This document shows, piece by piece, positions 300 through 63,648 of a stretch of DNA of 64,000 nt (positions are counted from its first letter, which is position 1; every line of letters starts with the position of its first letter). The stretch comes from Calothrix sp. PCC 7716. GTDB lineage: Bacteria > Cyanobacteriota > Cyanobacteriia > Cyanobacteriales > Nostocaceae. Under the pieces are notes generated by a model. The model made no database searches. It was not told the origin of the DNA and worked only from the letters and a program-made list of their open reading frames with translations. Location of the stretch: NCBI RefSeq assembly GCF_019977735.1, contig NZ_AP025018.1, positions 1,178,001 to 1,242,000 on the forward strand. The letters run 5' to 3'. The position numbers and the translations under genes are program-made.

Positions 300-760
300 A
301 TGCTTAACGCCTTACGGCATCTAAGGTTACAGCACCTATCTTTTCTACACAAAAATCTGCTAAAGAATACTGCTCAACGCCTTACGGCATCTAAGGTTAC
401 AGCACACATATACAACTATTCAATGACAGTTACCCGGAAATCTGCTCAACGCCTTACGGCATCTAAGGTTACAGCACAGCAATACGACGGAGTAGAGTTG
501 AACTTGTTGGACTGCTCAACGCCTTACGGCATCTAAGGTTACAGCACGTCAGTATTAGCTTGTGATGCTGTGTAAAATACACCTGCTCAACGCCTTACGG
601 CATCTAAGGTTACAGCACAAAAGTGTCGTTGTTAATTTCGTCTGTTTGTTTGGTCTGCTCAACGCCTTACGGCATCTAAGGTTACAGCACTACTTTACCA
701 GGTCTTAGGCGTTGGAAAAAAAACCTGCTCAACGCCTTACGGCATCTAAGGTTACAGCAC
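300..760 (-). CRISPR. CRISPR array 1 (7 repeats, 6 spacers)
   Basis: Seven 36-nt repeats start at 300, 370, 442, 512, 583, 655 and 725, with spacers of 34-36 nt. On the plus strand the repeat begins CTGCTCAACGCC and ends GGTTACAGCAC. The leftmost copy is degenerate (TGCTTAACG, preceded by A rather than C), so the leader is on the right and the array is read on the minus strand, like the cas genes. Read on the minus strand the repeat ends GGCGTTGAGCAG, which would give the crRNA 5' handle. The array lies directly downstream of cas2, separated only by its leader. Confidence 0.97.
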
Positions 761-1011
761 GGCGCCTTCCAAAATCCTTATATGGCGCAGTTCCCTAGAC
801 GATTTTACAAGCACCTGGTGCAAAAAGCTATTACAGCATTTGGTTATGTGATAAAACAGAAAAATTCAACTTCTCTAATTCACTATTGGTAAGGCTTTCA
901 GCATTTTGCAAGCACCTCTAAAGAGTTAAAGAGGCAGTCAGCTATTCTGCTACAAGTCTTCTGGGTAAAAAGGTGTCTGTTTTGGTTTCACACTCAGAGG
1001 TGCTTGTAATT
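761..1011 (-). promoter_or_regulatory. Leader of CRISPR array 1, three-box type
   Basis: About 250 nt between array 1 and the cas2 stop. Three copies of one box are seen: AGAGGTGCTTGT at 996-1007, GCAAGCACCTCT at 908-919 in inverted orientation, and ACAAGCACC at 807-815. The last lies exactly 46 nt from the first repeat. The outer box and its flank (TGAGTGTGAAA on the minus strand) are shared with the array 2 leader, and the whole three-box layout recurs at array 3. It is probably the array promoter plus the leader anchor used during spacer acquisition; that role is inferred. Confidence 0.75.
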
Positions 1012-1305
1012 TTAGACGATTAAAAAAGGTTCGTCTCGATTTTGCCATATTCCAGGGCGGTTATATTTAGGAATATCTTCGACACAGCGATTGCTTAGAC
1101 GAATAAATAGGATGTTGTCCTCGCTAGCTAATATTGTTTCTAATTCCCAGCGTAACTTTTCGCGCGTGCGTTGACTTAACCAGCAGCGAAATATTGAGTA
1201 TTGAACTCTTTGCCCGTATCCTTCTATGAGTTTATAAGCTTTACGCCATCGTTTTTGACAGCGAATGTCGTAACAAATGATGTAGCAATTTTTTAGTTCT
1301 GCCAT
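1012..1305 (-). CDS. cas2: CRISPR-associated endoribonuclease/integration protein Cas2
   Basis: A 97-residue Cas2, the usual length. It starts MAELKNCYIICYDIRC, which contains the typical first beta strand and the D of the Cas2 fold, followed by YGQRVQYSIFRCWL. Cas2 forms the Cas1-Cas2 integrase that inserts new spacers at the leader end of arrays. It lies 17 bp downstream of the cas4-cas1 fusion on the same strand, so the two are probably co-transcribed. Its stop codon is only about 5 bp from the first leader box of array 1, so cas2 runs almost directly into an array leader. Confidence 0.96.
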   Translation of the reverse strand: MAELKNCYIICYDIRCQKRWRKAYKLIEGYGQRVQYSIFRCWLSQRTREKLRWELETILASEDNILFIRLSNRCVEDIPKYNRPGIWQNRDEPFLIV

Positions 1306-1322
1306 AGTTGTTTAAAATTGAT

Positions 1323-2987
1323 TTATCTAACAATTAACTGTGCAAATAACCCGCCTTCACCAGACCACTCTTTTTCTAATAACCTCACCTCTAGTTCTAA
1401 AAGTCTTCGGTATGTCAGTGAATATTCTGTGACAGGGTGTTTCCAAGTTTCTTGTTTACGCCGTTCGTACATGTCTACAAATTTACGTTTACCTGCTTCA
1501 CTCAACCAAACTCGGTTTCCGCGCGCTTCAAAGTCTTCTTTTACATCCCATTGACCACGATTTATTGATGCGATGATCGGCATGTCAACGAGTGGGACGC
1601 GAAAAATCTCCATCAAATCTAATGCTAATGGCGGCGCCTGAGTACGAGGTTGGTGATAAAGTCCTAATGCTGGTTCTAAACCAACTGTTAAAATAGCATT
1701 CATCACATCTTTAAGTAGCAATGAATACCCAAATCCCAACATTGTATTGAAGCGGTCTTTGGGTGGGCGCCGATTGCGTCCATCGAATTGTAGTTCATTG
1801 GCGACATTAGGTAAAATTAAACTTGGTAAGGCGCCAAAATATAAAGCAGCGAGTTTACCTTCCATTCCGAGTAAAGAGGCAATTGATTTTGCTGAAGGAA
1901 CTTGTTTAAGCAAGATTTGCATTTGCTTAATAGCTGATTGTGATGTCTCTGAGACTGCTTTACCTCGTGTCCCACGCATCAAAAATTTACGTTGTCCTTG
2001 CCCACGACAAATTACTAATCTTCGTGCAAGTTCTAAACAAGTTTCTGAATTACTTAGCGCTGCATATTGGCGCACTCGTCGCTGAATACTACCTTGACGA
2101 ATATCGAAACTACCAAGATAACGCCCACTACCAGAAATAAAATGCACTCCAATACCATGTTCTGCACAGAAATATAATGCTTGAGTAGAAATTTGTGAAA
2201 AGCTGTGTAGTACTAATTGCCCTATTTGTTGTGCTGGTATTTTTTCTTCTGGTTGACCACGACGGGCAATTTTAATTTGTTCTCCAGTTCTTCCAACTGC
2301 TGTACCTGGTTCAAGTACGTGTATAATTTGTCGCGTATCGTCTTCTGGAAAAAGTCTTATTGGTTGCCACTCACGGTCATGTACTAAACGCGCTTCTTCA
2401 GGTAAACATACAGGCGCCAATGAACATCTTGCACAAAGCCGTTCGTTATCTGCTACGGGTGGTCTGTGTGTAGATTGTTGCAGTTTACGAGCTTCCTGTA
2501 TTGCGTCACGTACCGCTTGGCGCCCAGTATCATCTAAAGGAACATGTATCAAAACATTATCAGCATGGTAGCGAATACGACCTTCTTTAATTGGAAGACC
2601 TAATGCTGATTCAAGTAAACAAGCATAAGCGAGAATCTGCAACTTATCACTTTCCCAAGCTTGGGGTTGCTTTTTGTCATCCCGATGGCAACGTCCACGT
2701 TTATGTTCATAAGGAATAGTTTCTCCGTCACGAGTTCGCAGTGCATCAACACGTCCACGTAAACCTAACTCTTCACTAACAAGAAATAACTCCTCCCATT
2801 CTTCATCTTCCTTTTTCTCAAGTTCCGCATGTAAACGGCGCCCAGCAAAGACTGCTGCATCTTGTGTATAAAGTTCCTCAACTTCTTCAAGGTAAAAAAG
2901 ACGAGGACAATACGCAAGTGCGTGAAGCGAAGACACACGGATAGTTTCGAGTTTGACATTAAACTCAAGGTGTTCAATAGTTTGCAT
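1323..2987 (-). CDS. cas4-cas1: Cas4-Cas1 fusion, spacer acquisition nuclease-integrase
   Basis: A 554-residue fusion. Residues 1-200 are Cas4: first iron-sulphur cysteine C27, RecB-like nuclease residues D81, E94 and K96 (YEHKRG), Q117, and the C-terminal cysteines C185, C188 and C194. Residues about 210-554 are Cas1, with catalytic candidates E376 (LLGMEGKLAALY), H445 (GLYHQPRTQ) and D457/E460 (LALDLMEIFR). Cas4 trims prespacers and selects PAM, and Cas1 integrates them. Natural Cas4-Cas1 fusions are known in several type I lineages. It is downstream of array 2 and just upstream of cas2. Both halves look intact. Confidence 0.97.
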   Translation of the reverse strand: MQTIEHLEFNVKLETIRVSSLHALAYCPRLFYLEEVEELYTQDAAVFAGRRLHAELEKKEDEEWEELFLVSEELGLRGRVDALRTRDGETIPYEHKRGRCHRDDKKQPQAWESDKLQILAYACLLESALGLPIKEGRIRYHADNVLIHVPLDDTGRQAVRDAIQEARKLQQSTHRPPVADNERLCARCSLAPVCLPEEARLVHDREWQPIRLFPEDDTRQIIHVLEPGTAVGRTGEQIKIARRGQPEEKIPAQQIGQLVLHSFSQISTQALYFCAEHGIGVHFISGSGRYLGSFDIRQGSIQRRVRQYAALSNSETCLELARRLVICRGQGQRKFLMRGTRGKAVSETSQSAIKQMQILLKQVPSAKSIASLLGMEGKLAALYFGALPSLILPNVANELQFDGRNRRPPKDRFNTMLGFGYSLLLKDVMNAILTVGLEPALGLYHQPRTQAPPLALDLMEIFRVPLVDMPIIASINRGQWDVKEDFEARGNRVWLSEAGKRKFVDMYERRKQETWKHPVTEYSLTYRRLLELEVRLLEKEWSGEGGLFAQLIVR

Positions 2988-3022
2988 AAATGCCTTTAGG
3001 GTAATTTTGATTTTTTGGTTTT

Positions 3023-3777
3023 GGTAAAGGCGCCTTACGACATCTGAGGTTACAGCAACATCTAAATTAATACGTTGCCTAGAAGTAAAAGAATGCTCAA
3101 CGCCCTGCTACATCTAAGGTTAAAGCACCATCACGTTTCTTAGTGGCACCGTAACCGATAGTATGCTCAACGCTTTACAACATCTAAGGTTAAAACACTT
3201 GCAAGATAAAGATAACTCCATTCACGTTTTCGATGCTCAACGCCTTGCGATATCTGATGTAAAAACATCTAGACAGGTGCCCAAAGATACTATCTTCATA
3301 CTTGAATACTCAACGCCTTGCGACATCTGAGGTTAAAGCACGTAGTCCTAAGTCCTAATCAGTCCCTTGCGAACTGGTACGGATGCTCAACGCCTTGCGA
3401 CATCTAAGGTTAAAGCACTTTTGTCTATTTTTCAAAGCTTCGAGTACAGATTCCATGCTCAACGCCTTGCGACATCCGAGGTTAAAGCACAATAGCTGTT
3501 TGAGGCGCCTCCCATTGAATACCACATGCTCAACGCCTTGCGACATCCTAGGTTAAAGCACCGCCTATACCACCGCTACCAGCTATTAAGTAGTAAGTAT
3601 GCTCAACGCCTTGCGACATCCGAGGTTAAAGCACAGTTTTGTTACTAGTCTTATGAACTGGAGGTATCCAATGCTCAACGCCTTGCGACATCCGAGGTTA
3701 AAGCACTCGGCAAAGTAAAAATCGCCGTCACCAGGAATATCATGCTCAACGCCTTGCGACATCTGAGGTTAAAGCAC
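3023..3777 (-). CRISPR. CRISPR array 2 (11 repeats, 10 spacers), decaying at its distal end
   Basis: Repeats of 36 nt start at 3023, 3093, 3163, 3233, 3306, 3383, 3455, 3526, 3599, 3671 and 3742. The plus-strand consensus begins ATGCTCAACGCCTTGCG and ends GGTTAAAGCAC. The four leftmost copies carry many changes and the first has lost most of its start, while the right-hand copies are nearly uniform. The leader-distal end is therefore at the left and the array is read on the minus strand. Most repeats differ at one or two internal positions (CATCTGAGG, CATCCGAGG, CATCTAAGG), more than in array 1. It separates the effector genes from cas4-cas1 and cas2. Confidence 0.96.
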
Positions 3778-3935
3778 TTTCTAGCAAGCCTTTCAGTTAT
3801 TTGCAAGCAGCTTTAAGCCTTTGAAAACTGCTGCTAGGTCTGTTGCTACAAACCTTCTAAGCGAAAAAGTTACTTTCTTTGATTTCACACTCAGAGGTGC
3901 TTGCAATTTTCGACATGCAGGTAGTTTTAAATTAA
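3778..3935 (-). promoter_or_regulatory. Leader of CRISPR array 2, shortened
   Basis: This 158-nt region between array 2 and the cas5 stop contains AGAGGTGCTTGC at 3893-3904 with the same flank as array 1 (TTTCACACTCAG), and an inverted, altered copy GCAAGCAGCTTT at 3803-3814. Alignment with the array 1 leader (both share AAGSCTTTCAG beside the second box) shows that the repeat-proximal part with the third box is missing. The second box here lies only 25 nt from the first repeat. Confidence 0.65.
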
Positions 3936-4664
3936 TTAACTTGAACCAATTCCACTTTTAGGTAATTGTATCCAGGAGTTACTAGGAGGTTGCAAACAAA
4001 AAGAACTCGGTGTAAACACTTCTATTTGGGTTTTGCTATTGTCTGCTCGGTCAATCCAAACTGTTAGTCTACAATATCCGCGTTCGGCAGAACGGTTTCC
4101 TTGCTCTAATGGAGAATACCAACGTGCCATAAGAGGACTGTCAATAGGTTCAATTGAATCAAACAAAAAGTTGTTATCCCCAGCAAATGGTAGTCCATAT
4201 CGAGGTTCGTCTAATTCGCCGTTGAGTCCTTGGAGAATGCGCTCACACAACCATTTTTCTGCTCGCATACCAATTACCAAGTTTAAGCCAACTAAAACTT
4301 GCCGTTTTACTGGTGCTATCCAGTACTTGGAGCCATGAGTTTTTTCTGCAAGTTCTTTACCAGATGCACCAACAGGATATTGATGTAATTGTTGGTCTAA
4401 TACGGCTGTTTCTGGTTGAGAAACTTGAGCTATGGCAATCTCAATTTCAGGCAAATCATCCCTTATCAATGTCACTGGATTTGCTAACTCAATTCGCTGT
4501 TCGATTCCTGCAATATTAAGCAACAATCCGTATACAGTAGATGGGGAAGGTATGGGTGTGGTTGAGCGAGAGGCGCCAGATTGAAAAGGTCTGAATGACG
4601 CAAACGGAGCTTTAAGGTGAAAAAATTGCTCACCCAAAGTGTTATTATTATAATTTTTCATCAT
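3936..4664 (-). CDS. cas5: Cascade subunit Cas5 (DevS-like)
   Basis: A 242-residue Cas5 of the MYXAN/DevS type. The N terminus shows the Cas5 RAMP fold: FFHLKAPFASFRPFQSG, then the PSPSTVYGLLLNIAG helix typical of Cas5 proteins. Cas5 binds the 5' handle of the crRNA in Cascade. The ATG overlaps the cas7 stop by 4 bp (4661-4664), so the two are translationally coupled. It is the last effector gene before array 2. No catalytic histidine pair is evident, consistent with cas6 being present separately. Confidence 0.9.
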   Translation of the reverse strand: MMKNYNNNTLGEQFFHLKAPFASFRPFQSGASRSTTPIPSPSTVYGLLLNIAGIEQRIELANPVTLIRDDLPEIEIAIAQVSQPETAVLDQQLHQYPVGASGKELAEKTHGSKYWIAPVKRQVLVGLNLVIGMRAEKWLCERILQGLNGELDEPRYGLPFAGDNNFLFDSIEPIDSPLMARWYSPLEQGNRSAERGYCRLTVWIDRADNSKTQIEVFTPSSFCLQPPSNSWIQLPKSGIGSS

Positions 4665-5581
4665 TTATTGCTTGGTAAAAACTCTATTGCCAGAGCATCA
4701 AACAACTTTTCGGGATTAGTGTATAAATGCGCTCCCGCTTCTTTTAATCTAGTTAATTCGGCATTTTCCATATCACGGACGATTTCGCCACCTACCCAGA
4801 ATTCGTTTGCAGGTAAATCACAATTTTCATCCTCAGCTTTTCCCAAACGGTTTAGTTCTAAAAAACCTCCCATATCATCAAAACCATATGTATTATAACC
4901 AGCTACTAGCTTAGGGGTAAGTCTTGCAACTACAGAACGGGGTGCGAATTCGTAATAAGCACGAGCATGACCACCAGCTACTTTATTTAGTTGGGCAATG
5001 GCTTGGAGTAATGCTTTTACCCATTCGGGATGTTCTAAACAATCACGTTGTGATAATGCAAAGGGATACTGAAATGCTGTATAGGTGACTTCTCGATGTA
5101 GTAATGCAGAAGTACTGGCATTACTCCAAAAAGTTTTTTCATTGTTTTTAGTTTTCTGATTTAGTGGAGATTGATGAAATACTGCATCATATTTATATGG
5201 ACTTAATGCTACTGCCATATTACAACGAAAAATGCTATCACGCTTTGGTGGTAAAGGTTTATTTTTCTTTACATCTTCAGTTTTAGCGACTAAGAAACCG
5301 AATAGAAAATCATCTGCGTATTTATTAGCGTTGGGAAATTCTTTAAATTCTACAGCTAATTGATCAGCATCATAAACTCTAGAGCGGTTATGAGGTAGTC
5401 CCATCAAAATCAATGTTTCTCGCACAGCATTACGCATGGACTCTGGGCTGACAACAGTATATTTTTGTCCATTTTTAGAAATTTTTTGCAAAACTGTGCG
5501 GTTTTCTTCAGATTCTCCACGATAATTACTAGAAGGAGCGGGGTAAGTTAGAACTGTGGCAAACAAATTAAGGTTTTTCAT
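4661..5581 (-). CDS. cas7: Cascade backbone Cas7 (Cst2/DevR family)
   Basis: A 306-residue protein that starts MKNLNLFATVLTYPAPSSNYRG and contains SPESMRNAVRETL, the pattern of the Cst2/DevR Cas7 family seen in I-B and MYXAN systems. Several copies form the helical Cascade backbone along the crRNA. The stretch HREVTYTAFQYPFAL and the GGHARAYYEFAPRS region also match family expectation. It follows cas8 by about 55 bp and overlaps cas5. No frameshift or truncation is seen. Confidence 0.93.
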   Translation of the reverse strand: MKNLNLFATVLTYPAPSSNYRGESEENRTVLQKISKNGQKYTVVSPESMRNAVRETLILMGLPHNRSRVYDADQLAVEFKEFPNANKYADDFLFGFLVAKTEDVKKNKPLPPKRDSIFRCNMAVALSPYKYDAVFHQSPLNQKTKNNEKTFWSNASTSALLHREVTYTAFQYPFALSQRDCLEHPEWVKALLQAIAQLNKVAGGHARAYYEFAPRSVVARLTPKLVAGYNTYGFDDMGGFLELNRLGKAEDENCDLPANEFWVGGEIVRDMENAELTRLKEAGAHLYTNPEKLFDALAIEFLPSNK

Positions 5582-5636
5582 TCGTATATCCAGTAATATT
5601 TGATACGCCTATTGGCAATCCAAGGTAAATAAATTA

Positions 5637-7307
5637 TTAAGCAGCATCAACTTCAGAAGGTTGATTATCTTCTTTTTTGACGAGTGGAAATTGGCTAGAA
5701 AGAGCTAAAAGCGTCACTGCACGTACATCATCAGTTTGGTTAAATAATATCTCAGTAAAGCTGACAAATTCATCTTGTTTTACAAAAGGATAAAGAACTG
5801 AGACGAAGTAATCAATAAAAACTTTACCTTCTGTCCGAGAGCGAACGGCAAGAAAAGCTTCGTTCGCAATTTTATATTTTTTTTCATCAGCTTCTTTTTG
5901 GGGGATAGGTTTTCCATCCTGAGAGTAAGTCTTTTTCTCCTTATCCCATTTCATTCTATATTTGCTTTCAAGTTTACCTATGACGTAACCCTGGCAAACA
6001 TGATAAATTATTTGAGCATAATCGCGAATGTCTTTTTTCATTTTAACTCCTATTTCTTGTTCAAATAAATTACGAGCATCATGGCTAAAAGTAGAGTCTT
6101 GCAACCAAGTTCGAGGAATGCGGCTTAGAACTGCATCAAAATCAGTCCAAGGCTTAATTTTTCGAGCATTACTATCAAATTCTTCATCTGGCTGTTGCCG
6201 CAGAAGATTAATTAATAGCTGCTTACGAAACCACGGGCACCAGTATGATTTTTTAATTACCTCATATTTATCAACTTGTTGCTTAACTGGTTCTAGAGTA
6301 CTATTTGAACGTATTTTGATATTATTACCGATTTTTTCTGCATGGATAAGTTCGACACCTAAGATCATCCGCCGCAATTGCTGGTCTCCTGTTTCACGCT
6401 CAATCCGGTCACGTAGTAACAGCAACAGATCAAGGGCGCCTTCTTCCGGTAAATCAATCACTGCTTCACGAGGTAAATAACCCCACTTCTTTACATCTCG
6501 CTCTTTTAATACTTGGGGAAATACGCGGCAAAAATTCTTCAAGTTTGCTACATCAGGAATTGCCAAAGCATAACCAGCTAATTCACGTTTGCCATCTTTA
6601 TCTAAAACAGCAGGACAATAAACTTGTGCAGCAAATGCCCAAAAGTGCAGTAGAAACTGATAGCGCACTTTATCTTTGACAGGTATATTTTCCGCATTTG
6701 CAGCCATCGCACCCAGGTAATAATTACCTGACTGTCCAGTAATCTTGTCTGGGTGTTGCAGTTCTTCCCAGATATCTTGTACATCTTGTGAATAAGAAGT
6801 TCCATTTACTCGATGATTAAAAGAGTTACGAGTTGCAGGTACACCTCTAACTATACTCCAAAGCATATCTCGCCAAAGTTTTATCCACAGTCCGCTTTCC
6901 GAACTATCATTGGATTTATCCCAGTTAGAAAGAAATGCACCTTGGGGAATTGTTACGGTATAGAAGTATTTCAAAACTCGCTTAGTTTTGGTTTTATCCT
7001 TTTTATCTGGTACTTCAACTTCCTCCATGCGGTCATATTTTTTGATTTTCGTTTCCGTTGAGCGTTCTTGAGTGAATGCTTGATAAGTTAGGTCAAAGAG
7101 TGCCTGTAAGCCTTGTAAATTTAGCTTTAAGATTACGCCAAACTCATTTAAACTCTTTAATTCTATAATTGCTCCCTCACGTTCTTTAAACCAAGGTTGG
7201 GTATCGCGTAAATATTGCACCATTAAAACCAAACCTGCCAACCCTGCACGATGTTGAGCAGATGGTAATTCTGCCAGTTGATAGTTTAGTTCTAGCTCTA
7301 CTTCCAT
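5637..7307 (-). CDS. cas8: Cascade large subunit Cas8 (Csx13/DevT-like, MYXAN subtype)
   Basis: A 556-residue protein when started at ATG 7307 (MEVELELNYQLAELPSAQHR), which has GGAG just upstream. An upstream in-frame extension to 7391 lies wholly inside cas3 and is unlikely. The beginning (LAELPSAQHRAGLAGLV) is characteristic of the MYXAN/Csx13 Cas8. The large subunit recognises the PAM and recruits Cas3. It overlaps the end of cas3 by 10 bp, indicating coupled translation. Subtype assignment comes from family memory plus gene order. Confidence 0.85.
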   Translation of the reverse strand: MEVELELNYQLAELPSAQHRAGLAGLVLMVQYLRDTQPWFKEREGAIIELKSLNEFGVILKLNLQGLQALFDLTYQAFTQERSTETKIKKYDRMEEVEVPDKKDKTKTKRVLKYFYTVTIPQGAFLSNWDKSNDSSESGLWIKLWRDMLWSIVRGVPATRNSFNHRVNGTSYSQDVQDIWEELQHPDKITGQSGNYYLGAMAANAENIPVKDKVRYQFLLHFWAFAAQVYCPAVLDKDGKRELAGYALAIPDVANLKNFCRVFPQVLKERDVKKWGYLPREAVIDLPEEGALDLLLLLRDRIERETGDQQLRRMILGVELIHAEKIGNNIKIRSNSTLEPVKQQVDKYEVIKKSYWCPWFRKQLLINLLRQQPDEEFDSNARKIKPWTDFDAVLSRIPRTWLQDSTFSHDARNLFEQEIGVKMKKDIRDYAQIIYHVCQGYVIGKLESKYRMKWDKEKKTYSQDGKPIPQKEADEKKYKIANEAFLAVRSRTEGKVFIDYFVSVLYPFVKQDEFVSFTEILFNQTDDVRAVTLLALSSQFPLVKKEDNQPSEVDAA

Positions 7308-9601
7308 TCTCCAAACCCCCTTCTGGAGCAATATAAATTTGCATCTGCAATAGCCAAATAACGAGGTAATTTTTCTGGACGACCCTCCCATTGCCAGTGA
7401 GCTAAACGCTGAGGTATGGGTAAAACATAACCGTTATAGGGTTTTTGCTGCTCAATTAGTTTTCCAACTACTTCTAAATCACTGCTGAGTATTGCGTCCA
7501 CCGAGTAATCATCTGTATCTCTAAAGCTGTGAGAAGTCGCCCAATAACCACCTTCTAAAAAATAACAGTTCCCATCAGCGTACCTTTCTGCTGGAGAATA
7601 ATTTTCTAATGCTTTTGCTAGTTGTGCTTGGCTAATTTTTTCTCCTTGTATATGCTCAATAAAATTTTTTGCTGCTACAATCTCATCTTTGGGATAAGGT
7701 CTAATATTTGGTGGTTGGTAGACTAATATTTTTGAACGAAATACATTACCACGAGAAAGATGACGATTAGAACGTCCAAATCGCTGTACTAGCGAGGAAA
7801 CTGGCGCCAGTTCAGTAATAAGAACATCTGCATCTAAATCTAAGGAGATTTCACATACTTGTGTCGTTAAAGCAAGTGCTGGTTTTCGTTCCCCTATTTC
7901 ATAAGCAAATGCGTCAATAGTTTCTTGGTGGCGTTCTTGTCTATTTTTGAGTGTAAATCTGCTATGATAAGTTAGAACATCAGTATTTAATTCAAATTCT
8001 AATCCTGCCCCATTTTCGCGTCTTCCCGCAATTTGACGACACCTATCAACAGTATTTACAACCCAGAGTACACGATATTTATCATCTCGATAAGCTACTT
8101 TTGCATAATTATAAGCAGTTTCAAAATCAACAAATTGTATATCATATCTTGGATGTTCTTCTATTTTGCTTAATTCTTCATCCTTAGCAGCCGGAAATAC
8201 TTTCAATCCAGCATTTTTCAATTCTTCTTGCCGTGTTTTACTTAAGGTTGCTGTCATACACAGTACTGGAATATCAAAATTTTTAAGAAAGCTGATAAGG
8301 TTATCAAACATATCACGCGAAAAGCTATGAACCTCATCAATAACCAGTACAGAATCAGCCAAAACTGTTAGTAGACATATTCCAGTATAACCGTGGGTTA
8401 GAAAACAGAGAAATTGGTCTACAGTAGCAGAAAAGAATCGCTTACCCCAAAAACCTAAAGCAAACAAACGCTCATCAGTTGTAAAATCCTTACCATCGGT
8501 TGAGTCTGAAGGGTTTTTGAGCATTTCCTGTAGTTCATAAATAGCTGTTCCTGTTACTAAACTGGCATCAGTTTCTGGCGCCCAAGAAACATAATCCTTA
8601 AAACCTTCTGTAGCAGTACCGCGAGTCGGATAAAGGAATATAACATGGCCAACTTTGTTACGACTTAACGCAGCTTGATGCCATTTATAACCAAAAATTG
8701 TTTTTCCGCTACCGCAAGCACTTAGTAAGAGACATCTATCTCCTTGCTCTAGAGCTTTTTTCTGGAATTCTTTTAACTTAAACTTTTTACCAGATTTTTC
8801 GGCTATTTGAGCATAACGAGGTTGTAGAATTTTGGTTTCTAATTCCTCTGGAGTAATTGCAGGTGCGTGCAATGTCTCATCAACCCATTGTTCAAGTTGT
8901 TTATTTTCACGAAACATTGCTGAAGCAACGGAATCAGAAGCCATTAATCCAGCTTTAACTGCTAGTAATAACGAGCGACGCTCATAATTATCTAGAATGT
9001 CTAAACCAAAATCTTCTCCTGCATCGTTTGCATCTAAATAAACTTGATTCCACAAAGAATCATTTTCTGACCATTCTTCAGGTAGTTCATCAGGTAAATC
9101 CTCAAGTTCAGCAATCTTTGCTATTTGTTGCAAAATATTGGTTACTTCTGGATGACGTAAAAAAAGCTTTACTTGTTTAATAACTGTTCGAGGTTTACCC
9201 CACTCTTTATAGCTTGCCTTCATATGATGGCTAAGTACAGCACCAGTAATTACTTCCAAATCCAAATCTAATTTGCTGGATGCTAGCCAAGCTCTTACAT
9301 TTGGCAAGTGTAAAATTAAAGCGCTCAACCACTCATGACGCAACGTTTGCTGTTTGAGTTTTTTCTTCACTGCTGCATCAAACTCATCATTTGCCTTGCC
9401 TATATCATGAAATAGCGCAGCAATCATCAAGTGAAGCAAAAATCGCTTGGCATCTTGAATACCAAAAAAACGACACCAATTTAGTAATATTCTACCTTTG
9501 AATATTGATAAAGCTGCATTTTTAGTATCTGTCAAATGCTGCTCAATAGTTAATATTTTGCCGTCTTCTCTTGGACTCTTAGCCCAAAGTTGTTTCCACA
9601 T
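7298..9601 (-). CDS. cas3: CRISPR nuclease-helicase Cas3
   Basis: A 767-residue protein from ATG 9601 (MWKQLWAKSPRE); the open frame extends to 9652 but overlaps cas6 heavily. The N-terminal HD nuclease shows H22, the HD pair H65-D66 (ALFHDIGKAND), H89 (RHEW) and H125-H126 (LSHHMK). The helicase part has Walker A (SACGSGKTIFGY), the DEVH box (VLVIDEVHSF), MTATLS, and motif VI (QRFGRSNR). Cas3 is recruited by target-bound Cascade and unwinds and degrades DNA. Its start overlaps the end of cas6 and its end overlaps cas8, so it sits in one operon. Confidence 0.97.
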   Translation of the reverse strand: MWKQLWAKSPREDGKILTIEQHLTDTKNAALSIFKGRILLNWCRFFGIQDAKRFLLHLMIAALFHDIGKANDEFDAAVKKKLKQQTLRHEWLSALILHLPNVRAWLASSKLDLDLEVITGAVLSHHMKASYKEWGKPRTVIKQVKLFLRHPEVTNILQQIAKIAELEDLPDELPEEWSENDSLWNQVYLDANDAGEDFGLDILDNYERRSLLLAVKAGLMASDSVASAMFRENKQLEQWVDETLHAPAITPEELETKILQPRYAQIAEKSGKKFKLKEFQKKALEQGDRCLLLSACGSGKTIFGYKWHQAALSRNKVGHVIFLYPTRGTATEGFKDYVSWAPETDASLVTGTAIYELQEMLKNPSDSTDGKDFTTDERLFALGFWGKRFFSATVDQFLCFLTHGYTGICLLTVLADSVLVIDEVHSFSRDMFDNLISFLKNFDIPVLCMTATLSKTRQEELKNAGLKVFPAAKDEELSKIEEHPRYDIQFVDFETAYNYAKVAYRDDKYRVLWVVNTVDRCRQIAGRRENGAGLEFELNTDVLTYHSRFTLKNRQERHQETIDAFAYEIGERKPALALTTQVCEISLDLDADVLITELAPVSSLVQRFGRSNRHLSRGNVFRSKILVYQPPNIRPYPKDEIVAAKNFIEHIQGEKISQAQLAKALENYSPAERYADGNCYFLEGGYWATSHSFRDTDDYSVDAILSSDLEVVGKLIEQQKPYNGYVLPIPQRLAHWQWEGRPEKLPRYLAIADANLYCSRRGFGEWK

Positions 9602-10232
9602 TCGTATTACCTCTAAAGTCTTGTTTAATTGGAATATTAGAGAAAAATACACCGCAGCCTAAACGACGTTTTCCCCCTAAACCATGTATTTGTAGTTTTA
9701 TAGAATCATCTGGATTTAAATCAGAAACAACAACGCTAAAACCGACGATAGTGTATTTTTGAATTTTGAGAGTCAGTCTTTTCGGTTCACCCTTATCATT
9801 TGCAGGAATGCCAATATTAGCGCTAATCTCTAATGCTTTTAATTGACGTTCTGCCGCGAGCAAAAATTGTTCTGGTTCTTTATAACCCTTGATTGTCACC
9901 AATCTCGCTCTGAGTGTATCTACAGGTTTTAAAGTTTGAAGCTCTGGATTACCTAGCTGAATCGTACATTCTCCAATTGTTAACTTTTCTCCAGCAAGTG
10001 AATAAACATGAGCGATTGCCTCAACAGGTAGTCGCAAATACAACTTAGACTTTTTAGTAAGCTTGATTTTACCTTGTTTATCGGGAATACCAGTAATGGT
10101 GTTAATTGAAAATTCTTTTAGCTCATGGAGAATTGGAAATTTATTAGAAATTCCTGCCAAAAGACGATGATTATGGTCTGCATGTAACTCTGTACCGTAA
10201 ACCGGAAATGATAAATCGATGAAGTTACTCAT
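9579..10232 (-). CDS. cas6: crRNA-processing endoribonuclease Cas6 (MYXAN/Cmx6-like)
   Basis: A 217-residue Cas6-like protein from ATG 10232 (MSNFIDLSFPVYG). The C-terminal glycine-rich loop is GLGGKRRLGCGVFF, the hallmark of Cas6 RAMP proteins. An H-rich stretch near the N terminus (HADHNHRL) may supply the catalytic histidine. It would cleave the transcripts of all three arrays, whose repeats are similar. It is the first gene of the effector operon and overlaps cas3 by 23 bp. The subtype name is recalled, not searched. Confidence 0.88.
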   Translation of the reverse strand: MSNFIDLSFPVYGTELHADHNHRLLAGISNKFPILHELKEFSINTITGIPDKQGKIKLTKKSKLYLRLPVEAIAHVYSLAGEKLTIGECTIQLGNPELQTLKPVDTLRARLVTIKGYKEPEQFLLAAERQLKALEISANIGIPANDKGEPKRLTLKIQKYTIVGFSVVVSDLNPDDSIKLQIHGLGGKRRLGCGVFFSNIPIKQDFRGNTNVETTLG

Positions 10233-10557
10233 AGCGATAGGAAAGTAGAAGTGGTCGATTATCAGAAATACCAATGATTTCAGAGATGTTTTAATTAATT
10301 GCGAGCTGATCGTGGATGTCTCAAGTGCGACAACTAATAATCAACTCACCTTGTTCACGTAAGTAATTAGCTGAGGTAGGTATCATAAATTAAATACCCC
10401 AGATAACAACTTGAGAAGGCGCCTAACTCTATTGTGATTTTCTGAAGCTCTTTATTGCTGCTCAGAGTTGTTACACGAACACTCTGGAACTGCTTCAACC
10501 CCGTTTTTATTTTTTGGATTCTGTGAAATCATAGTGTTCAGACTTTATTTATATTCT

Positions 10558-10585
10558 TCGGCTACGACAAAAGCCGATTTTTTTT
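10558..10585 (+). terminator. Rho-independent terminator-like hairpin
   Basis: Stem TCGGCT at 10558-10563 pairs with AGCCGA at 10572-10577 around an 8-nt loop, followed by eight T. It would end plus-strand transcription, yet no plus-strand gene lies upstream. Either it ends an unrecognised small RNA or it insulates the divergent region. Confidence 0.55.
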
Positions 10586-10666
10586 ACTTTACCACGAAAG
10601 TTCTAGATAAACTTACTAACATTCAATCAATGTTAATCTAAAAAAACCTGTCACTCATATCAAGCT

Positions 10667-10769
10667 GAAGGAACGCCAATCTGGCATCAGAGGTAGCAAC
10701 AGGCTTAAAACTTGTTCTAGAATAACTGACCAATTGCTCAACGCCTGAACGCGGTAAACGCTGTACAGT
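10667..10769 (-). repeat. Two degenerate CRISPR-like repeats flanking a 31-nt spacer-like segment
   Basis: The copy at 10734-10769 keeps TGCTCAACGCC, which on the minus strand is GGCGTTGAGCA, the part that forms the crRNA 5' handle. The copy at about 10667-10702 keeps AACGCC, GCATCAGAGGT and AGCAACA, matching the internal and 5' parts of the array 2 repeat with one gap. The segment between them is about 31 nt, close to the 34-36 nt of normal spacers. The order on the minus strand is handle-bearing repeat, spacer-like segment, second repeat. It may be an array relic or a crRNA-like regulatory RNA. Confidence 0.45.
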
Positions 10770-10809
10770 CGAATCAAAGGCAACTGCTGTTTATATCGAA
10801 ATCTTACCA

Positions 10810-11796
10810 TCATAATTTACATCCTTGGGGCAAATCGTAATTATTCCTCATCCCCTCAATTTCTTGCCGCACTAACTCTGCTAACTTCGGTGGACTTAAA
10901 ACCTTTGCTCCCCTTCCATACCACATAACCCACCGCTTTAAATCATTAATCCCCCGTACATGCATTTTCAACGTTATGGAACTATCAGCATGTGTCTCAA
11001 TTTCTTGGGTATAATGCCAGCGTCTTTCTTTGATATAGGGTGCAGTTTTTGCATCAAACCAAATTTCCACATCTAGTAACTCATCTCCAACTTCGTGTTG
11101 GAATACGTTACCGATATACTCCTTGGCATTAAATCTTGGGTCTGGTATGAAGTGTTCAGGTAGCAGTTCTAATTTTTTGATTCTGTCAACCCGAAACCAG
11201 CGAAATTGCTGACGGTTATGGCAATAGCCTATTAAATATAGATTTGTCGCACGATAAACATGAAGCAAATAAGGGTCTAGCTTACGCTCAGAGATTGCAT
11301 CACGGCTAGCTGTGTAATATGTCATCAGTACAACTTGATGTTGACTGCAAGCATCTTCGAGTTTGTGCCAAATATCTGGGTCTAACTCACTCTCCGCACC
11401 ACCGCCAAATATAATATGTTCCTCAGCTAGCTGTCGCACATTAACCCAGGTTGTTTCTGGTAGTCGTTCGCTTAACCGGGCAATTGCACTTTTAAGTTGC
11501 ATCGCATAAGGAGAACCAGTATAGGTTTCCAGCATTTTTGCACCAACAGTAAGGGCAAATAATTCACCTTGGGTTAAAGGAACACTAGGTAGGCGCCATT
11601 CCGGTTCGATGTAATGGTGTCCCAATTTTGGCGTATATTCGAGGGGAGCATGAAAACGATCTCGCAAAAAAGCTAAGTCACTGCGAATTGTTCTTTCACT
11701 GATTTCCAGTGCTTTTGCTAAACTAGCAGTTGTTGGTCGTCTGGTAGTTCGGATTAATTTATCAATTTCTAACAAACGTTCAAGATGCCGAGACAT
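10810..11796 (-). CDS. WYL-domain transcriptional regulator
   Basis: A 328-residue protein: N-terminal winged helix-turn-helix (about residues 1-60, LAKALEISERTIRSDLAFLRD), then a WYL domain around residues 140-225 (MTYYTASR ... LYLIGYCHNR ... RWFRVDRIKKLEL), and a C-terminal WCX-like extension. WYL regulators commonly control defence genes, and one represses a CRISPR locus in Synechocystis. Its position upstream of cas6 and beside the array 3 leader fits a role here. A GCAAGCACCTCTG box lies about 135 bp upstream of its start, the same box found in all three leaders, making it a plausible operator. That link is inferred. Confidence 0.9.
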   Translation of the reverse strand: MSRHLERLLEIDKLIRTTRRPTTASLAKALEISERTIRSDLAFLRDRFHAPLEYTPKLGHHYIEPEWRLPSVPLTQGELFALTVGAKMLETYTGSPYAMQLKSAIARLSERLPETTWVNVRQLAEEHIIFGGGAESELDPDIWHKLEDACSQHQVVLMTYYTASRDAISERKLDPYLLHVYRATNLYLIGYCHNRQQFRWFRVDRIKKLELLPEHFIPDPRFNAKEYIGNVFQHEVGDELLDVEIWFDAKTAPYIKERRWHYTQEIETHADSSITLKMHVRGINDLKRWVMWYGRGAKVLSPPKLAELVRQEIEGMRNNYDLPQGCKL

Positions 11797-12190
11797 AGTA
11801 CCTATACCCTGATTGATATAGCTATCCTAAAAGAGATACCCGGCAAAAATGCTTCCGTCTAAAAAAGTTTTTAGAAATATATATTTGGTAATTATCTGTA
11901 CATATTTGTTTAGATTGTGTATTTCAGACTGCAAGCACCTCTGTTTGTAAAGCCCTATTAATAAACAAAAGTAGTCACAAGCCTTATCTGATGAGCGCTT
12001 TACCTAGAAAAAATAACTGATGGGTGCTTGCAAAATTGCTATAGTACTTATACTGTAAGCTTTGTAGCAATTGTCAAATTATTGTAAAAAAGTCGTTTCA
12101 GCGATTTTTTTGTTTGGGGTTGTATCGTTACCAGTGGTGCTTGTAAAATTGCTGAGGGAAGCACTCAGGGTAAAGATTTTCAAGCCCGCT
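11797..12190 (+). promoter_or_regulatory. WYL promoter region and three-box leader of CRISPR array 3
   Basis: No gene is seen. The boxes are GCAAGCACCTCTG at 11931-11943, GGGTGCTTGC at 12022-12031 in inverted orientation, and GGTGCTTGT at 12136-12144. The last is exactly 46 nt from the first repeat, as in array 1. The 46-nt segments also resemble each other (AGGGAA and AAAGATTTTCAAG versus AAGGATTTTGGAAG). The left part also contains the minus-strand promoter of the WYL gene. Confidence 0.75.
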
Positions 12191-13370
12191 GTGTTTAACC
12201 TCTGACTACCGTAAGGTGTTGATCACTTGAAATTGAAGAAACCCCCAATGAAAAAGAAGATTGTGTTTAACCTCTGACTACCGTAAGGTGTTGATCACAT
12301 GTTCTGGAACGAATGCTTCGCAACCTGTTACGGGTGTTTAACCTCTGACTACCGTAAGGTGTTGATCACGAAGCACTATTACTATTTTTGGGTTTAATTG
12401 ATAGATGTGTTTAACCTCTGACTACCGTAAGGTGTTGATCACTCGAATACTCTGGGGTCGAGTGGCGCCACTTGTTGTAGTGTTTAACCTCTGACTACCG
12501 TAAGGTGTTGATCACAATAGTTTTTATGTCAAAGTTATCTCACGACAAAAAAGTGTTTAACCTCTGACTACCGTAAGGTGTTGATCACATTCAAAAGTAC
12601 TAAAGTCAAAGTTAAGTAAATCCGTGTTTAACCTCTGACTACCGTAAGGTGTTGATCACGATTCCAGCTTAATAAATCAATTAAAGTTTGCTCATGTGTT
12701 TAACCTCTGACTACCGTAAGGTGTTGATCACACTTGATTCTAATAAACTACCCAACGCATTACTGTGGTGTTTAACCTCTGACTACCGTAAGGTGTTGAT
12801 CACAATGCAACTACCTCTACCGCACATCTGAATAAGGTTAGGTGTTTAACCTCTGACTACCGTAAGGTGTTGATCACTTTGGTAACATGTGATAGCTCCT
12901 ATCTAGTCAATCGTGTTTAACCTCTGACTACCGTAAGGTGTTGATCACCTTCTGCTTTTGGTCGGTCACTATAGTATCTTTCAGGTGTTTAACCTCTGAC
13001 TACCGTAAGGTGTTGATCACTATCCAAGCCTGAAGATTCTCTAGAGGTTTGGATAGTGTTTAACCTCTGACTACCGTAAGGTGTTGATCACCGTAATATC
13101 TTGCCGTTGTTGCTTCTGTATCGTTCGTGTTTAACCTCTAATTACCGTTAGGTGTTGATCACGCATCCTCCACATATTTTGCTGTTGGTATTTCTGTGGT
13201 GTTTAACCTCTGATTACCGTAAGGTATTGATCATCAACACAATCTATTAAGGACGGTGACTGGTGTTTAACCTTTGATTACCATTAGGTGTTGACCACAC
13301 AAAGTAGTGAATATCTCACGCTGGTTTTTTTGCAATGTCTAACCTTTGATTACCGTAAGGTATTGACCAC
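12191..13370 (+). CRISPR. CRISPR array 3 (17 repeats, 16 spacers)
   Basis: Thirty-six-nt repeats begin at 12191, 12263, 12334, 12407, 12480, 12553, 12624, 12696, 12768, 12842, 12913, 12985, 13056, 13127, 13199, 13263 and 13335. They start GTGTTTAACCTCTGAC and end AAGGTGTTGATCAC. The first 13 are identical and the last four carry substitutions, so the leader is on the left and the array is read on the plus strand. Spacers are about 35-38 nt except the short one before 13263 (28 nt). The repeat aligns with the minus-strand repeats of arrays 1 and 2 (GTG-T--TAACCT, GTAAGG-GTTGA-CA), so the same Cas6 and Cascade may use it. Confidence 0.98.
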
Positions 13371-13750: not shown

Positions 13751-14098
13751 ATGGCAAGGGGAGATGTTCTTTTGGTTAGTTTGCCTGATTCTGATAAACG
13801 AGAGGAAAAAGGCAACCGTCCAGCGATTGCAGTGCAAACTGATGTAGCTAATTCTCCGATGTTAATGATTATTCCGGTTACATCTTCTCTAGGGGCATTG
13901 CGGTTTCCTTTTGTAGTAAGGATTGAGCCATCGGAAGAAAATGGCTTGACTTTACCCTCGGTTGCAATGGTATTCCAAATGCGGGCAATTGACAGAAAGC
14001 GTATTATTCAGAAAATTGGTGAGTTAGAGCCGCAATATTTAACACAAATTGATGCAGAAATTTGGCGAATGTTAAAGCCGCTAGAAATCGAAGACTAA
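13751..14098 (+). CDS. PemK/MazF family endoribonuclease toxin
   Basis: A 115-residue protein with the MazF/PemK fold signature: GDVLLVSLPDSDKREEKGNRPAIAVQ at the start and MLMIIPVTSS in the middle strand, followed by LPSVAMVFQMRAIDRKRIIQKIGEL. These toxins cut mRNA at short sequences. The R of GNRPA and the T of PVTSS correspond to active-site positions in the family. It follows its antitoxin without a gap. It looks intact. Confidence 0.9.
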   Translation: MARGDVLLVSLPDSDKREEKGNRPAIAVQTDVANSPMLMIIPVTSSLGALRFPFVVRIEPSEENGLTLPSVAMVFQMRAIDRKRIIQKIGELEPQYLTQIDAEIWRMLKPLEIED

Positions 14099-44845: not shown

Positions 44846-46416
44846 ATGCCAGAATCGGTAGCCGATAAAACCCCAATGCCAATCACAATTCGTAGGCGCC
44901 ACATTGACCCACCAGGTTTGTGGATAGTCATTGTGATTGGTTCTGTCGTGTTACACTCACTAGTACTTTGGTTAATGTTTACATCCAAATTAAATATAGT
45001 GGGTCGTAGGTCAAATGCAGCGACACCAATTAAGATAGTAGAGGTTGTGCCCACAATTAAAGCCAAAGCGAAACCTAGAGTAATCGCGCAAAAACCAAAA
45101 GTACAACCCAAACTACAATCAAAACCGATTCAAGTTAAACCTGAAATTAAAACTCAACCAGTTCCTGCTCAACCACCTCAAAACCGAACATCTCAACCTG
45201 GTACAATTGCATTTACCGACAGGCTACCCGTCAAAAAGCCTGTTAACAAATCACCATTAGCTCAAAAACAGCGTTCTCTACCATCCATCAAACCAAAATT
45301 AGAGCCAAAAGTCGCAATAATACCCAAAAAACCTGTCAATACAGAGCCTAAAAAACCAAATATTGCAGAACAAAGGCGCCTGCAAAGACTTGCAGAACAA
45401 CAACGTTTACAAAGACTTGCAGAACAACAGCGTCTACAAGAACTCGCACAACAAAGGCGCTTTGATCAACTTGTTCAACAACAACGTCAACAAGAACTCG
45501 CAGAACAACGACGCTTTGATCAACTTCTCCAACAACAACGTACTCAAGAGCTAGCAGAACAACGGCGCCTACAAAAACTTGCCGTCAACAAGAACTCGCA
45601 GAACAACGACGCTTTGATCAACTTCTCCAACAACAACGTACTCAAGAGCTAGCAGAACAACGGCGCCTACAAAAACTTGCCCAACAACAACGTCAACAAG
45701 AACTCGCAGAACAACGACGCTTTGATCAACTTCTCCAACAACAACGTACTCAAGAACTTGCAGAACAACAGCGTCTACAAAAACTTGCCCAACAACAGCG
45801 TCAACAACAAATTGACGCACAACGGCGAACAGAAGATGTTGTAAGAAATCAGGCAAAACTACCTGTAAATACTGCACCTGTAGAAATATCTGGAAATCCA
45901 GATACACCATTTTCTAGACCCACACAAAAACCGACACCAACCGAAGCACCAGCGACCACAATAGCAGATAGTACTTCTGTTCAAGGAGGATTTATACTGG
46001 CAAACTTGTTGCCTGTAGATGAAGAAGCACAAAAGGGACTTAACGCAGGAACTACAAGACTTGTAGTAAACCCTAAACTTCAAGAAACAACAAATACTCC
46101 GAAAAAATTACCCGTACTTAACGAACAAGACAAAAAACTGGTAACACAACCGATAAAATGTGGTGTTCTGTTATCTATCGATGCCAGTGGTAATATTTTT
46201 AGTCCTAGAGAAGGTTTTCCAGGTATTAAAGCGTCGAGCGATGTACCTGGAACCGGAGACTTGTGTCAAAGATATGTAGACGAGTACTTCAAACTGAACA
46301 AGGAAAATATCAGAATTTCACCAGGTAGAGATATTGATGGGATTCCCTCAGCCGGTCAATTGTTTAGACACATTACAATACAACCAGCGGCGCCGGAAAA
46401 TAAAAATCCTAGTTAA
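44846..46416 (+). pseudogene. TonB-like protein with glutamine/arginine repeats, frameshifted
   Basis: Starting at 44846 the protein has an RRR cluster, a membrane helix (LWIVIVIGSVVLHSLVLWLMF), a proline/lysine-rich linker and repeats such as RRLQRLAEQQ and RRFDQLLQQQ. At about 45584 one repeat lacks the ten bases CAACAACAAC found in the others, and the frame stops at 45652. A second frame is open from 45592 to 46416 and supplies the missing repeats and a C-terminal domain (CGVLLSIDASGNIFSP, LCQRYVDEYF). The parent gene would encode about 526 residues. It may be a pseudogene, a slipped allele or an assembly error. Confidence 0.8.
45488..45800 (+). repeat. Coding tandem repeats of about 98-108 bp
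   Basis: Three near-identical copies of the unit with CAAGAACTCGCAGAAC and TTTGATCAACTTCTCC follow one another at about 45488, 45585 and 45690. Copy two is short by ten bases at its start, creating the frameshift described for the TonB-like gene. Repeat length and near-identity make slippage or copy-number change likely. Confidence 0.8.
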
Positions 46417-63510: not shown

Positions 63511-63648
63511 GACGGGCAGGGATGCCCGTTCCACAAGATGTTTCACAAGATGTTCCACAAGATGTTTCACAAGATGTTCCACAAGATGTTCCACAAGATG
63601 TTCCACAAGATGTTCCACAAGATGTTCCACAAGATGTTTAACAAGATG
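63511..63648. repeat. 12-bp tandem array derived from a dispersed palindrome
   Basis: The palindrome GGGCAGGGATGCCC at 63514-63527 is followed by ten units of TTCCACAAGATG (63529-63648); the second and fourth are TTTCACAAGATG and the tenth TTTAACAAGATG. The first unit is the normal tail of the dispersed element, as at 57.98 kb, so it has been amplified. An 86-codon ORF across it is meaningless. Confidence 0.9.

Follow-up and report, generated by a model that had tools for sequence, protein, structure and literature searches.

Leader boxes of type I-B (MYXAN) CRISPR arrays in cyanobacteria vary in spacing almost only by whole helix turns, suggesting a landing platform for the spacer-inserting enzyme

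The type I-B (MYXAN) locus and its leader boxes

The first 13.4 kb of the 64-kb stretch of Calothrix sp. PCC 7716 DNA analysed here (NZ_AP025018.1, denoted the window) is a type I-B (MYXAN) CRISPR (clustered regularly interspaced short palindromic repeats)-Cas locus that includes a WYL-domain protein and three arrays. The leaders of these arrays carry short boxes in a fixed order. Among related leaders the distances between the boxes change almost only in whole helix turns, which suggests, from comparison of sequences, that the boxes form a landing platform for the enzyme inserting new spacers. The genes cas6, cas3, cmx8, cas7, cas5, a cas4-cas1 fusion and cas2 are all encoded on the minus strand; array 1 is located past cas2, array 2 between cas4-cas1 and cas5, and array 3 past the WYL gene. 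Assignment to type I-B (MYXAN) follows from matches to Cmx8, Cmx6, Cas7 (DevR), Cas5 (DevS; 1 bit below the curated cut-off) and a MYXAN Cas1 fused to Cas4. Among the best 80 of 212 Cas4-Cas1 relatives, which were kept for analysis, the closest named ones are Calothrix NIES-4105 and PCC 7103 (95%).

The pattern [AG]CAAGCACC matches seven times in the window, every time inside the leaders of the three arrays. As a preliminary description of this DNA had proposed, the leaders of array 1 (minus strand) and array 3 (plus strand) carry three boxes in the same order and orientation and at the coordinates it gave, with the inner box 46 nt from the first repeat in both (gaps 761-806 and 12145-12190). 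Its gap figures are consistent with the start-to-start distances that we measured, 90 and 91 bp between the outer and middle boxes and 101 and 113 bp between the middle and inner boxes. Its claim that the leader is more conserved than the repeat held for the boxes only: compared ungapped over 200 nt, the two leaders are 37% identical, whereas the repeats agree at 23 of 36 positions. Array 2, absent from that description, also has the same leader type, with an outer box, a relic of the middle box and no inner box, its leader having lost roughly 120 nt, inner box included. The features are as follows.

300-760, minus strand: array 1, 7 repeats GTGCTGTAACCTTAGATGCCGTAAGGCGTTGAGCAG, the leader-proximal 6 identical.
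761-1011, minus strand: leader of array 1.
769-780, minus strand: element B, a second proximal element, located at -20 relative to the repeat; its sequence, TAAGGATTT, is a variant of TAAGGGTTTCAG, and it was recognised by sequence and positional enrichment.
802-815, minus strand: inner box (A3) of array 1, GGTGCTTGTAAAAT; its GGTGCTTGT occupies 807-815.
903-919, minus strand: middle box (A2) of array 1, AGAGGTGCTTGCAAAAT (box 908-919), 101 bp from A3 start to start.
996-1007, plus strand: outer box (A1) of array 1, which reads ACAAGCACCTCT along the leader and faces the opposite way to A2 and A3; its distance to A2 is 90 bp and to the end of cas2 4 nt.
3018-3777, minus strand: array 2, 11 repeats in 9 forms; the leader-proximal seven differ by 0-2 nt, the others by more.
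3778-3935, minus strand: truncated leader of array 2, inner module missing; the outer box is at 3893-3904, and the remnant of the middle box, at 3803-3811, now stands at a distance of 26 nt from the repeat.
11931-11942, minus strand: inverted outer box (A1) of array 3, its plus-strand sequence being GCAAGCACCTCT.
12023-12036, plus strand: middle box (A2) of array 3, GGTGCTTGCAAAAT (9-letter box 12023-12031); its distances to A1 and A3 are 91 and 113 bp.
12136-12149, plus strand: inner box (A3) of array 3, GGTGCTTGTAAAAT (9-letter box 12136-12144).
12191-13370, plus strand: array 3, 17 repeats GTGTTTAACCTCTGACTACCGTAAGGTGTTGATCAC; the first 13 identical, the last 4 degenerate.
1012-1305, minus strand: cas2 (NCBIfam TIGR01573).
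1323-2987, minus strand: cas4-cas1 fusion with a MYXAN Cas1 (NCBIfam TIGR03983, TIGR00372); relatives of this gene carry the same leader.
3936-10274, minus strand: effector operon (profile matches), with no exact box in its upstream region, 10275-10809.
3936-4664, minus strand: cas5.
4661-5581, minus strand: cas7.
5637-7391, minus strand: cmx8/cas8.
7298-9652, minus strand: cas3.
9579-10274, minus strand: cas6.
10810-11796, minus strand: WYL-domain protein (PADLOC WYL), adjoining the leader of array 3; an unlikely reader of the boxes.

This one locus holds two spacing classes, 101 bp between the middle and inner boxes in array 1 and 113 bp in array 3, and a second cas4-cas1 copy exists in the same genome. 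The second copy (L061, ~1.95 Mb away) is 83% identical and is accompanied by a Cmx1-type effector and by two leaders with the same trio of boxes, one of which has 1 mismatch in the outer and 1 in the inner box. An open reading frame (ORF) close by in L061 (16956-18530) appears TnpB-like, by eye only. The whole genome (12.4 Mb, G000) yielded nine Cas1 (PF01867) matches, some of them partial, indicating that several adaptation modules coexist. Elsewhere in the window, a small ORF past array 3 (13751-14098) gave weak MazF/ChpB-type matches (E 8e-6, below the curated cut-off), and tandem repeats at 45363-45827 and 63528-63648, with periods of 27, 54, 108 nt and 12 nt, are perhaps repetitive coding sequence.

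The box plan and its spacing in related leaders

We searched 388 genomes of the order, taken from a larger group; 64 of them have a MYXAN-like cas1. The loci of 59 relatives and the second locus of this genome were taken, with G342 added later and G010, G271 and G318 left out. Requiring at least three repeats, we detected 136 arrays at the loci of cas4-cas1 relatives. Their unique leaders with a length of 200 nt or more numbered 100, reduced to 96 (82 loci) by removing those with N-runs or unplaceable array starts. The inner box, GGTGCTTG with at most 1 mismatch, was found in 66 of the 96 unique leaders, and the end of this 8-mer lies 47 nt from the repeat in 60 of the 66 (49 nt in four, 46 in one and 50 in one), which favours the constraint on this distance that had been proposed for homologous loci. 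Four control 8-mers turned up in the same interval in 0-1 of the 96 leaders. CTTG stands exactly at the inner-box place in 71 leaders; the inner box is usual, not universal. The middle box was present in 72 leaders and the outer box in 43, again within 1 mismatch; wherever both were present (39 leaders) they lie 90, 91 or 92 bp apart, and a looser outer motif, CAWGSAYC, falls 90-92 bp from the middle box in 52 of 72. The sequence between the elements carries little information: lengths are kept, letters are not. The leader ends at the junction are conserved as well (CGCT or CGCC in 36 of 60), and the second element, TAAGGGTTT with at most 2 mismatches, occurs at -20 in 52 of the 96 leaders, with a weaker signal at two positions around the middle box.

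The same leader plan accompanies both Cmx8 and Cmx1 effectors. By comparison, 25 arrays lying near Cas1 of other types, taken on both sides (47 flanks, about half of them leaders) and not typed one by one, contributed one inner, no middle and no outer box. Thus the conserved motif, at a fixed distance to the first repeat, is specific to one adaptation module.

The distance between the middle and inner boxes, measured in 58 leaders, falls into classes of 100-103 bp (25 leaders), 110-114 bp (19) and 121-124 bp (11), with 80, 90 and 95 bp once each. A period scan from 6 to 30 bp peaked at 10.4-10.5 bp, equal to one turn of DNA (R 0.82), a height reached by none of 2000 uniform nulls. Exact box pairs 96-126 bp apart with a repeat downstream (n = 42, in sequence mostly collected around cas1) showed spacings of 99-103 (27), 111-114 (10) and 121-122 bp (5), and none of these 42 fell at 104-110 or 115-120 bp. 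A search of the 388 genomes that was blind to cas1 and to arrays, GGTGCTTG-N(88-118)-GGTGCTTG, returned 30 loci, 16 of which have a repeat-like end downstream and spacings of 100-103 (11) or 111-113 bp (5). In the remaining loci the pair spacings are scattered over 102-126 bp; the pair pattern also matches tandem coding repeats, and its reversed control gave 49 matches (counted by hand). Two related transposon-linked leaders, described below, add middle-inner spacings of 90 and 91 bp. On a tree of 61 Cas4-Cas1 proteins the spacing class changes at least 14 times. The phase of the upstream motif is kept throughout these classes, which, at the level of sequence, are clear natural evidence for helical phasing.

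The plan appears to extend further. Three leaders from Planctomycetota (L196, L198 and L199; Cas1 50-52% identical) have the inner box at 49, the middle box at 149, 139 and 169 and the outer box at 240, 231 and 260, giving outer-middle distances of 91, 92 and 91 and middle-inner distances of 100, 90 and 120, which is suggestive of a loose recurrence of the box plan in another phylum.

We also asked where the boxes occur outside leaders. The bare 9-mer is not enriched in the whole genome (111 matches versus 118 for the pattern read backwards), and a genome-wide regulon of the 9-mer was rejected because the reversed form is equally frequent. The 14-mer GGTGCTTGYAAAAT, on the other hand, occurs at 8 places in the 12.4 Mb versus 0 for its control, and 7 of these 8 lie within leaders of the two type I-B loci. 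The 388 genomes contain it at 119 places in 76 genomes, versus 13 for the reversed pattern (counted by hand). Within 13 kb of a MYXAN-like cas1 there are 33 of the 119, which, on assumed sizes of loci and genomes, corresponds to ~19 per Mb there and 0.04 per Mb in the remaining sequence. From the other 86 places we took 19 loci. Six of them (L251, L252, L254, L263, L268 and L269) hold type I-B arrays whose leaders place the inner box at 47 and the middle one at 148-149, with cas fragments close to L251, L254 and L268; two are transposon-linked arrays (L256 and L257), one (L255) is a box pair with one repeat at a contig end, and at ten no array was seen. At a separate locus (L303, 9253-9540), remnants of cas4-cas1 and cas2 adjoin an array whose leader is intact and of whose 12 repeats 11 are identical, perhaps reflecting a recent loss of adaptation genes.

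Spacer turnover, transposon-linked arrays and the reader of the boxes

Over its last 200 nt, the array 1 leader matches the corresponding leaders of two relatives at 91% and 94% identity, and array 1 shares no spacer with either of them (6 against 15 and 18), indicating that the memory turns over while the leader stays. Array 2, with its uneven repeats and lost inner module, looks like a fossil; in two Calothrix-like relatives the array at the same position has an intact leader, and its first 24 and 12 repeats are identical. Counting 94 arrays of at least 6 repeats, we found no difference among the first four repeats in 65 of the 68 that have the inner box, in 17 of 19 with 2-3 mismatches in it and in 3 of 7 with more than 3 mismatches (Fisher p 0.0009 for the first group against the last). 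The boxes mostly accompany arrays with uniform proximal repeats; their exact sequence is not strictly needed, the 19 arrays with 2-3 inner-box mismatches being nearly all uniform at their proximal repeats. In at least one leader (L190) the trio is unrecognisable, yet the array has 17 repeats, the first six identical.

Arrays linked to transposons carry the leader too. At L256 (G337) and L257/L310 (G328) a TnsD/TniQ gene lies beside cas5, cas7 and cas8, and the boxes are at 229/138/47 and 228/137/47; these loci are likely transposons, with the transposase genes outside view. L300 (G073, from the pair search) encodes a complete set of TnsA, a Mu-type transposase, a TniB-like AAA protein and TniQ, as well as cas6, cas8, cas7 and cas5, and has boxes at 149 and 47, the outer box not being found within 1 mismatch. 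At L301, a leader and only one repeat accompany a TnsD/TniQ-like gene. A PF01867 search detected no Cas1 in G073, G328 and G337 (completeness 99%, 91% and 100%). L256 (4 spacers) and L257 (2 spacers) have the terminal repeat in common but no spacer, and in L256 the same change is present in both of the repeats nearest the leader. The unshared spacers and the shared repeat change indicate that the arrays changed although no Cas1 was found in their present hosts. Either these arrays were updated in trans in other hosts, or their leader is kept for transcription.

Together, these observations lead us to propose that the boxes probably serve the type I-B MYXAN Cas4-Cas1/Cas2 spacer-integration complex as sites for docking or bending. 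The inner box, at a fixed reach from the leader-repeat junction and next to the second element at about -20, would aim integration. The middle and outer boxes would act as a rigid inverted pair, 90-92 bp apart, and the DNA between the middle and inner boxes would be looped or wrapped with the sites held on the same face of the helix, so that its length may vary only by whole turns. The reader of the boxes may be the complex, perhaps aided by the single HU-family protein or a different bending protein, and DNA bending is presumably involved. One gene of the HU/integration host factor (IHF) family (PF00216) is present in 19 of 21 genomes, including this one, and two in the others; with a single such protein this host has no IHF pair, and the leader does not belong with the IHF-dependent ones, whose hosts have IHF alpha and beta. 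The preliminary description had offered the boxes as an anchor for the integration complex or as a regulator site. The anchor half is supported by the association of the trio with cas4-cas1-cas2, the fixed inner distance, the whole-turn steps, the turnover of spacers and the state of array 2; the other half, with the WYL protein as reader, found no support.

Several points weigh against the proposed integration role. The full trio was found within 1 mismatch in only 35 of the 96 leaders; 15 leaders have neither the inner box nor CTTG at its place, some of them relics or interior pieces of split arrays, while four others (L105, L149, L163 and L190) precede arrays with uniform proximal repeats. 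The repeat-identity count includes loci that were collected for their boxes, and its group of 7 boxless arrays is small and partly made of fragments. The uniform null of the period scan ignores the kinship of leaders, so its significance is overstated, and 1 of the 58 spacings (95 bp, L124, possibly with a false middle box, and kept) is off phase. The Cas4-Cas1 tree is a quick one with 26 open branches, and its starred branches force only 1-3 changes per class. Each Planctomycetota box has 0-2 mismatches, and the fitting match was picked among several weak ones. The three Cas1-less genomes keep the leader on their transposon-linked arrays, which a promoter role would also explain. Finally, a fixed distance to the repeat is partly trivial, since spacers enter only at the junction; the argument from it holds because the length is fixed while the intervening sequence diverges, as is seen here.

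The main rival to the integration-complex reading is a host transcription factor for which the boxes would be operators on the array promoter, the phasing reflecting looping and the repeat distance being a by-product. Looping regulators also produce 10.5-bp phasing, and the plan is kept in Cas1-less transposon arrays and in arrays without nearby adaptation genes, which would still need transcription. A review also locates the array promoter in the leader (PMC10212523). However, no regulon appears in the genome, where 7 of 8 exact 14-mers are in these leaders; the conserved junction ends and the -20 element fit integration better than transcription; the box-to-junction stretch diverges in sequence yet keeps its length; and no consistent -10 box was noticed by eye (no promoter scan was run). 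We regard this rival as unlikely, though deserving of serious attention. Operators of the neighbouring WYL protein are far less probable. That protein has its start codon 134 nt from the outer box of array 3, and in type I-D the WYL protein Sll7009 is described as a negative regulator (PMC10212523), a precedent in favour of this rival. Array 1, though, is ~10 kb from the WYL gene, the exact box is missing upstream of the cas operon, and the boxes do not follow the gene: leaders without a WYL match (n = 29, 23 loci) contain the inner box in 23, the middle box in 22 and the full trio in 10, versus 27, 33 and 16 of the 46 with one, where "without" denotes no match at E 1e-10, with cas6 flanked on each side by at least 2.5 kb of DNA (WYL genes elsewhere were not searched for). 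A WYL-regulated promoter, which would co-occur with the gene and have sites at the regulated operon, is not what we found, and a WYL operator was rejected on co-occurrence.

An action of the elements as RNA structure in the leader transcript has a slimmer chance still. The second motif forms a loose palindrome, TGAAACCCTTA-N5-TAAGGGTTTCAG, at three places, but its arms do not covary, the paired fraction being 0.37, 0.33 and 0.37 versus 0.38, 0.37 and 0.36 with arms swapped among leaders. The covariation test was not clean, 1 of 6 shifted controls exceeding its null (shift -9, p 0.001), and it leaves room for some other pairing close to the middle box; hairpin formation by the second motif was rejected, as covariation was lacking at the proposed centres. 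Least credible is that the boxes are common through a recent duplication of leaders and have no function. Arrays and leaders can duplicate together within one genome, but leaders 1 and 3 have near-perfect boxes at the low overall identity given above, and the plan is seen again at loci that have diverged and, in a looser form, in a second phylum. Mimicry of the repeat (the box resembling repeat ends and the second motif the repeat's TAAGGCGTTGAGC, by eye only) was not adopted, because the box is identical with repeats ending GAGCAC or GATCAC.

Returning to the integration complex, we tentatively consider a wider version, which may be true but which we would not yet favour. The trio could be a portable, IHF-free integration address: the leader would wrap a symmetric Cas4-Cas1/Cas2 complex, with the inverted outer pair as a clamp, the inner box as a ruler and a loop that evolves by whole turns. 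Because the leader carries the address, the same one could serve two effectors, cas-distant arrays and Tn7-like type I-B transposons without adaptation genes in Cas1-less genomes, which would borrow the adaptation machine in other hosts to load guides. The leaders bear on how Cas1-Cas2 locates the right junction in IHF-less hosts, a question shared by many type I systems. These leaders amount to a natural spacing experiment, in which many lineages carry the same boxes at distances differing by one turn and the class has switched several times along the Cas1 tree. The same address on transposon arrays in Cas1-less genomes, with spacers that differ between two close copies, makes guide acquisition testable.

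Comparison with known leaders

Type I-E leaders contain an IHF site and an upstream anchoring motif. They resemble the leaders described here in that a motif lies upstream at a defined distance from the first repeat, with a second element between motif and junction; the inner box lies at a similar distance. They differ in motif sequence, which is not known to be related, and in their use of IHF: the present host lacks the IHF pair, and its leaders have two further boxes, the outermost inverted, up to ~260 bp away. For the type I-E leader of Escherichia coli, two sources describe an anchoring site and bending by IHF (PMC10212523, PMC9456107). In type I-F, the leader is folded on the Cas1-2/3 integrase and has motifs that include inverted repeats (PMC12259127). 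The leaders described here likewise have motifs, inverted repeats among them, and in the proposed model would be folded on their integrase too; however, type I-F needs IHF and has a Cas2-Cas3 fusion, whereas here Cas4 is fused to Cas1, and Cas2 and Cas3 are separate. The type I-D leader of Synechocystis (~200 bp) is described as having motifs I-III that raise spacer uptake in a host with no IHF homologue (PMC10212523), and it is similar to the present leaders in being cyanobacterial, with three motifs and no IHF homologue. A possible difference is that the flanks near other Cas1 types, whose arrays were not typed singly, nearly lack the boxes of the present leaders (1/0/0).

A literature search, judged by titles and first lines, found no study of type I-B MYXAN leaders in cyanobacteria among the papers listed, which included one on CRISPR systems of myxobacteria (PMC11237760). 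Santiago-Frangos and co-workers (2021) reportedly described phased leader motifs in types I-C, I-E, I-F and II-C, with the phase relative to the repeat mattering for adaptation. The importance of motif phase relative to the repeat is common to that set and to the leaders described here. That set is reportedly IHF-dependent, whereas the present leaders come from a I-B family without IHF, in which natural spacing classes differ by one turn. The plan is an IHF-less form of a feature type already known.

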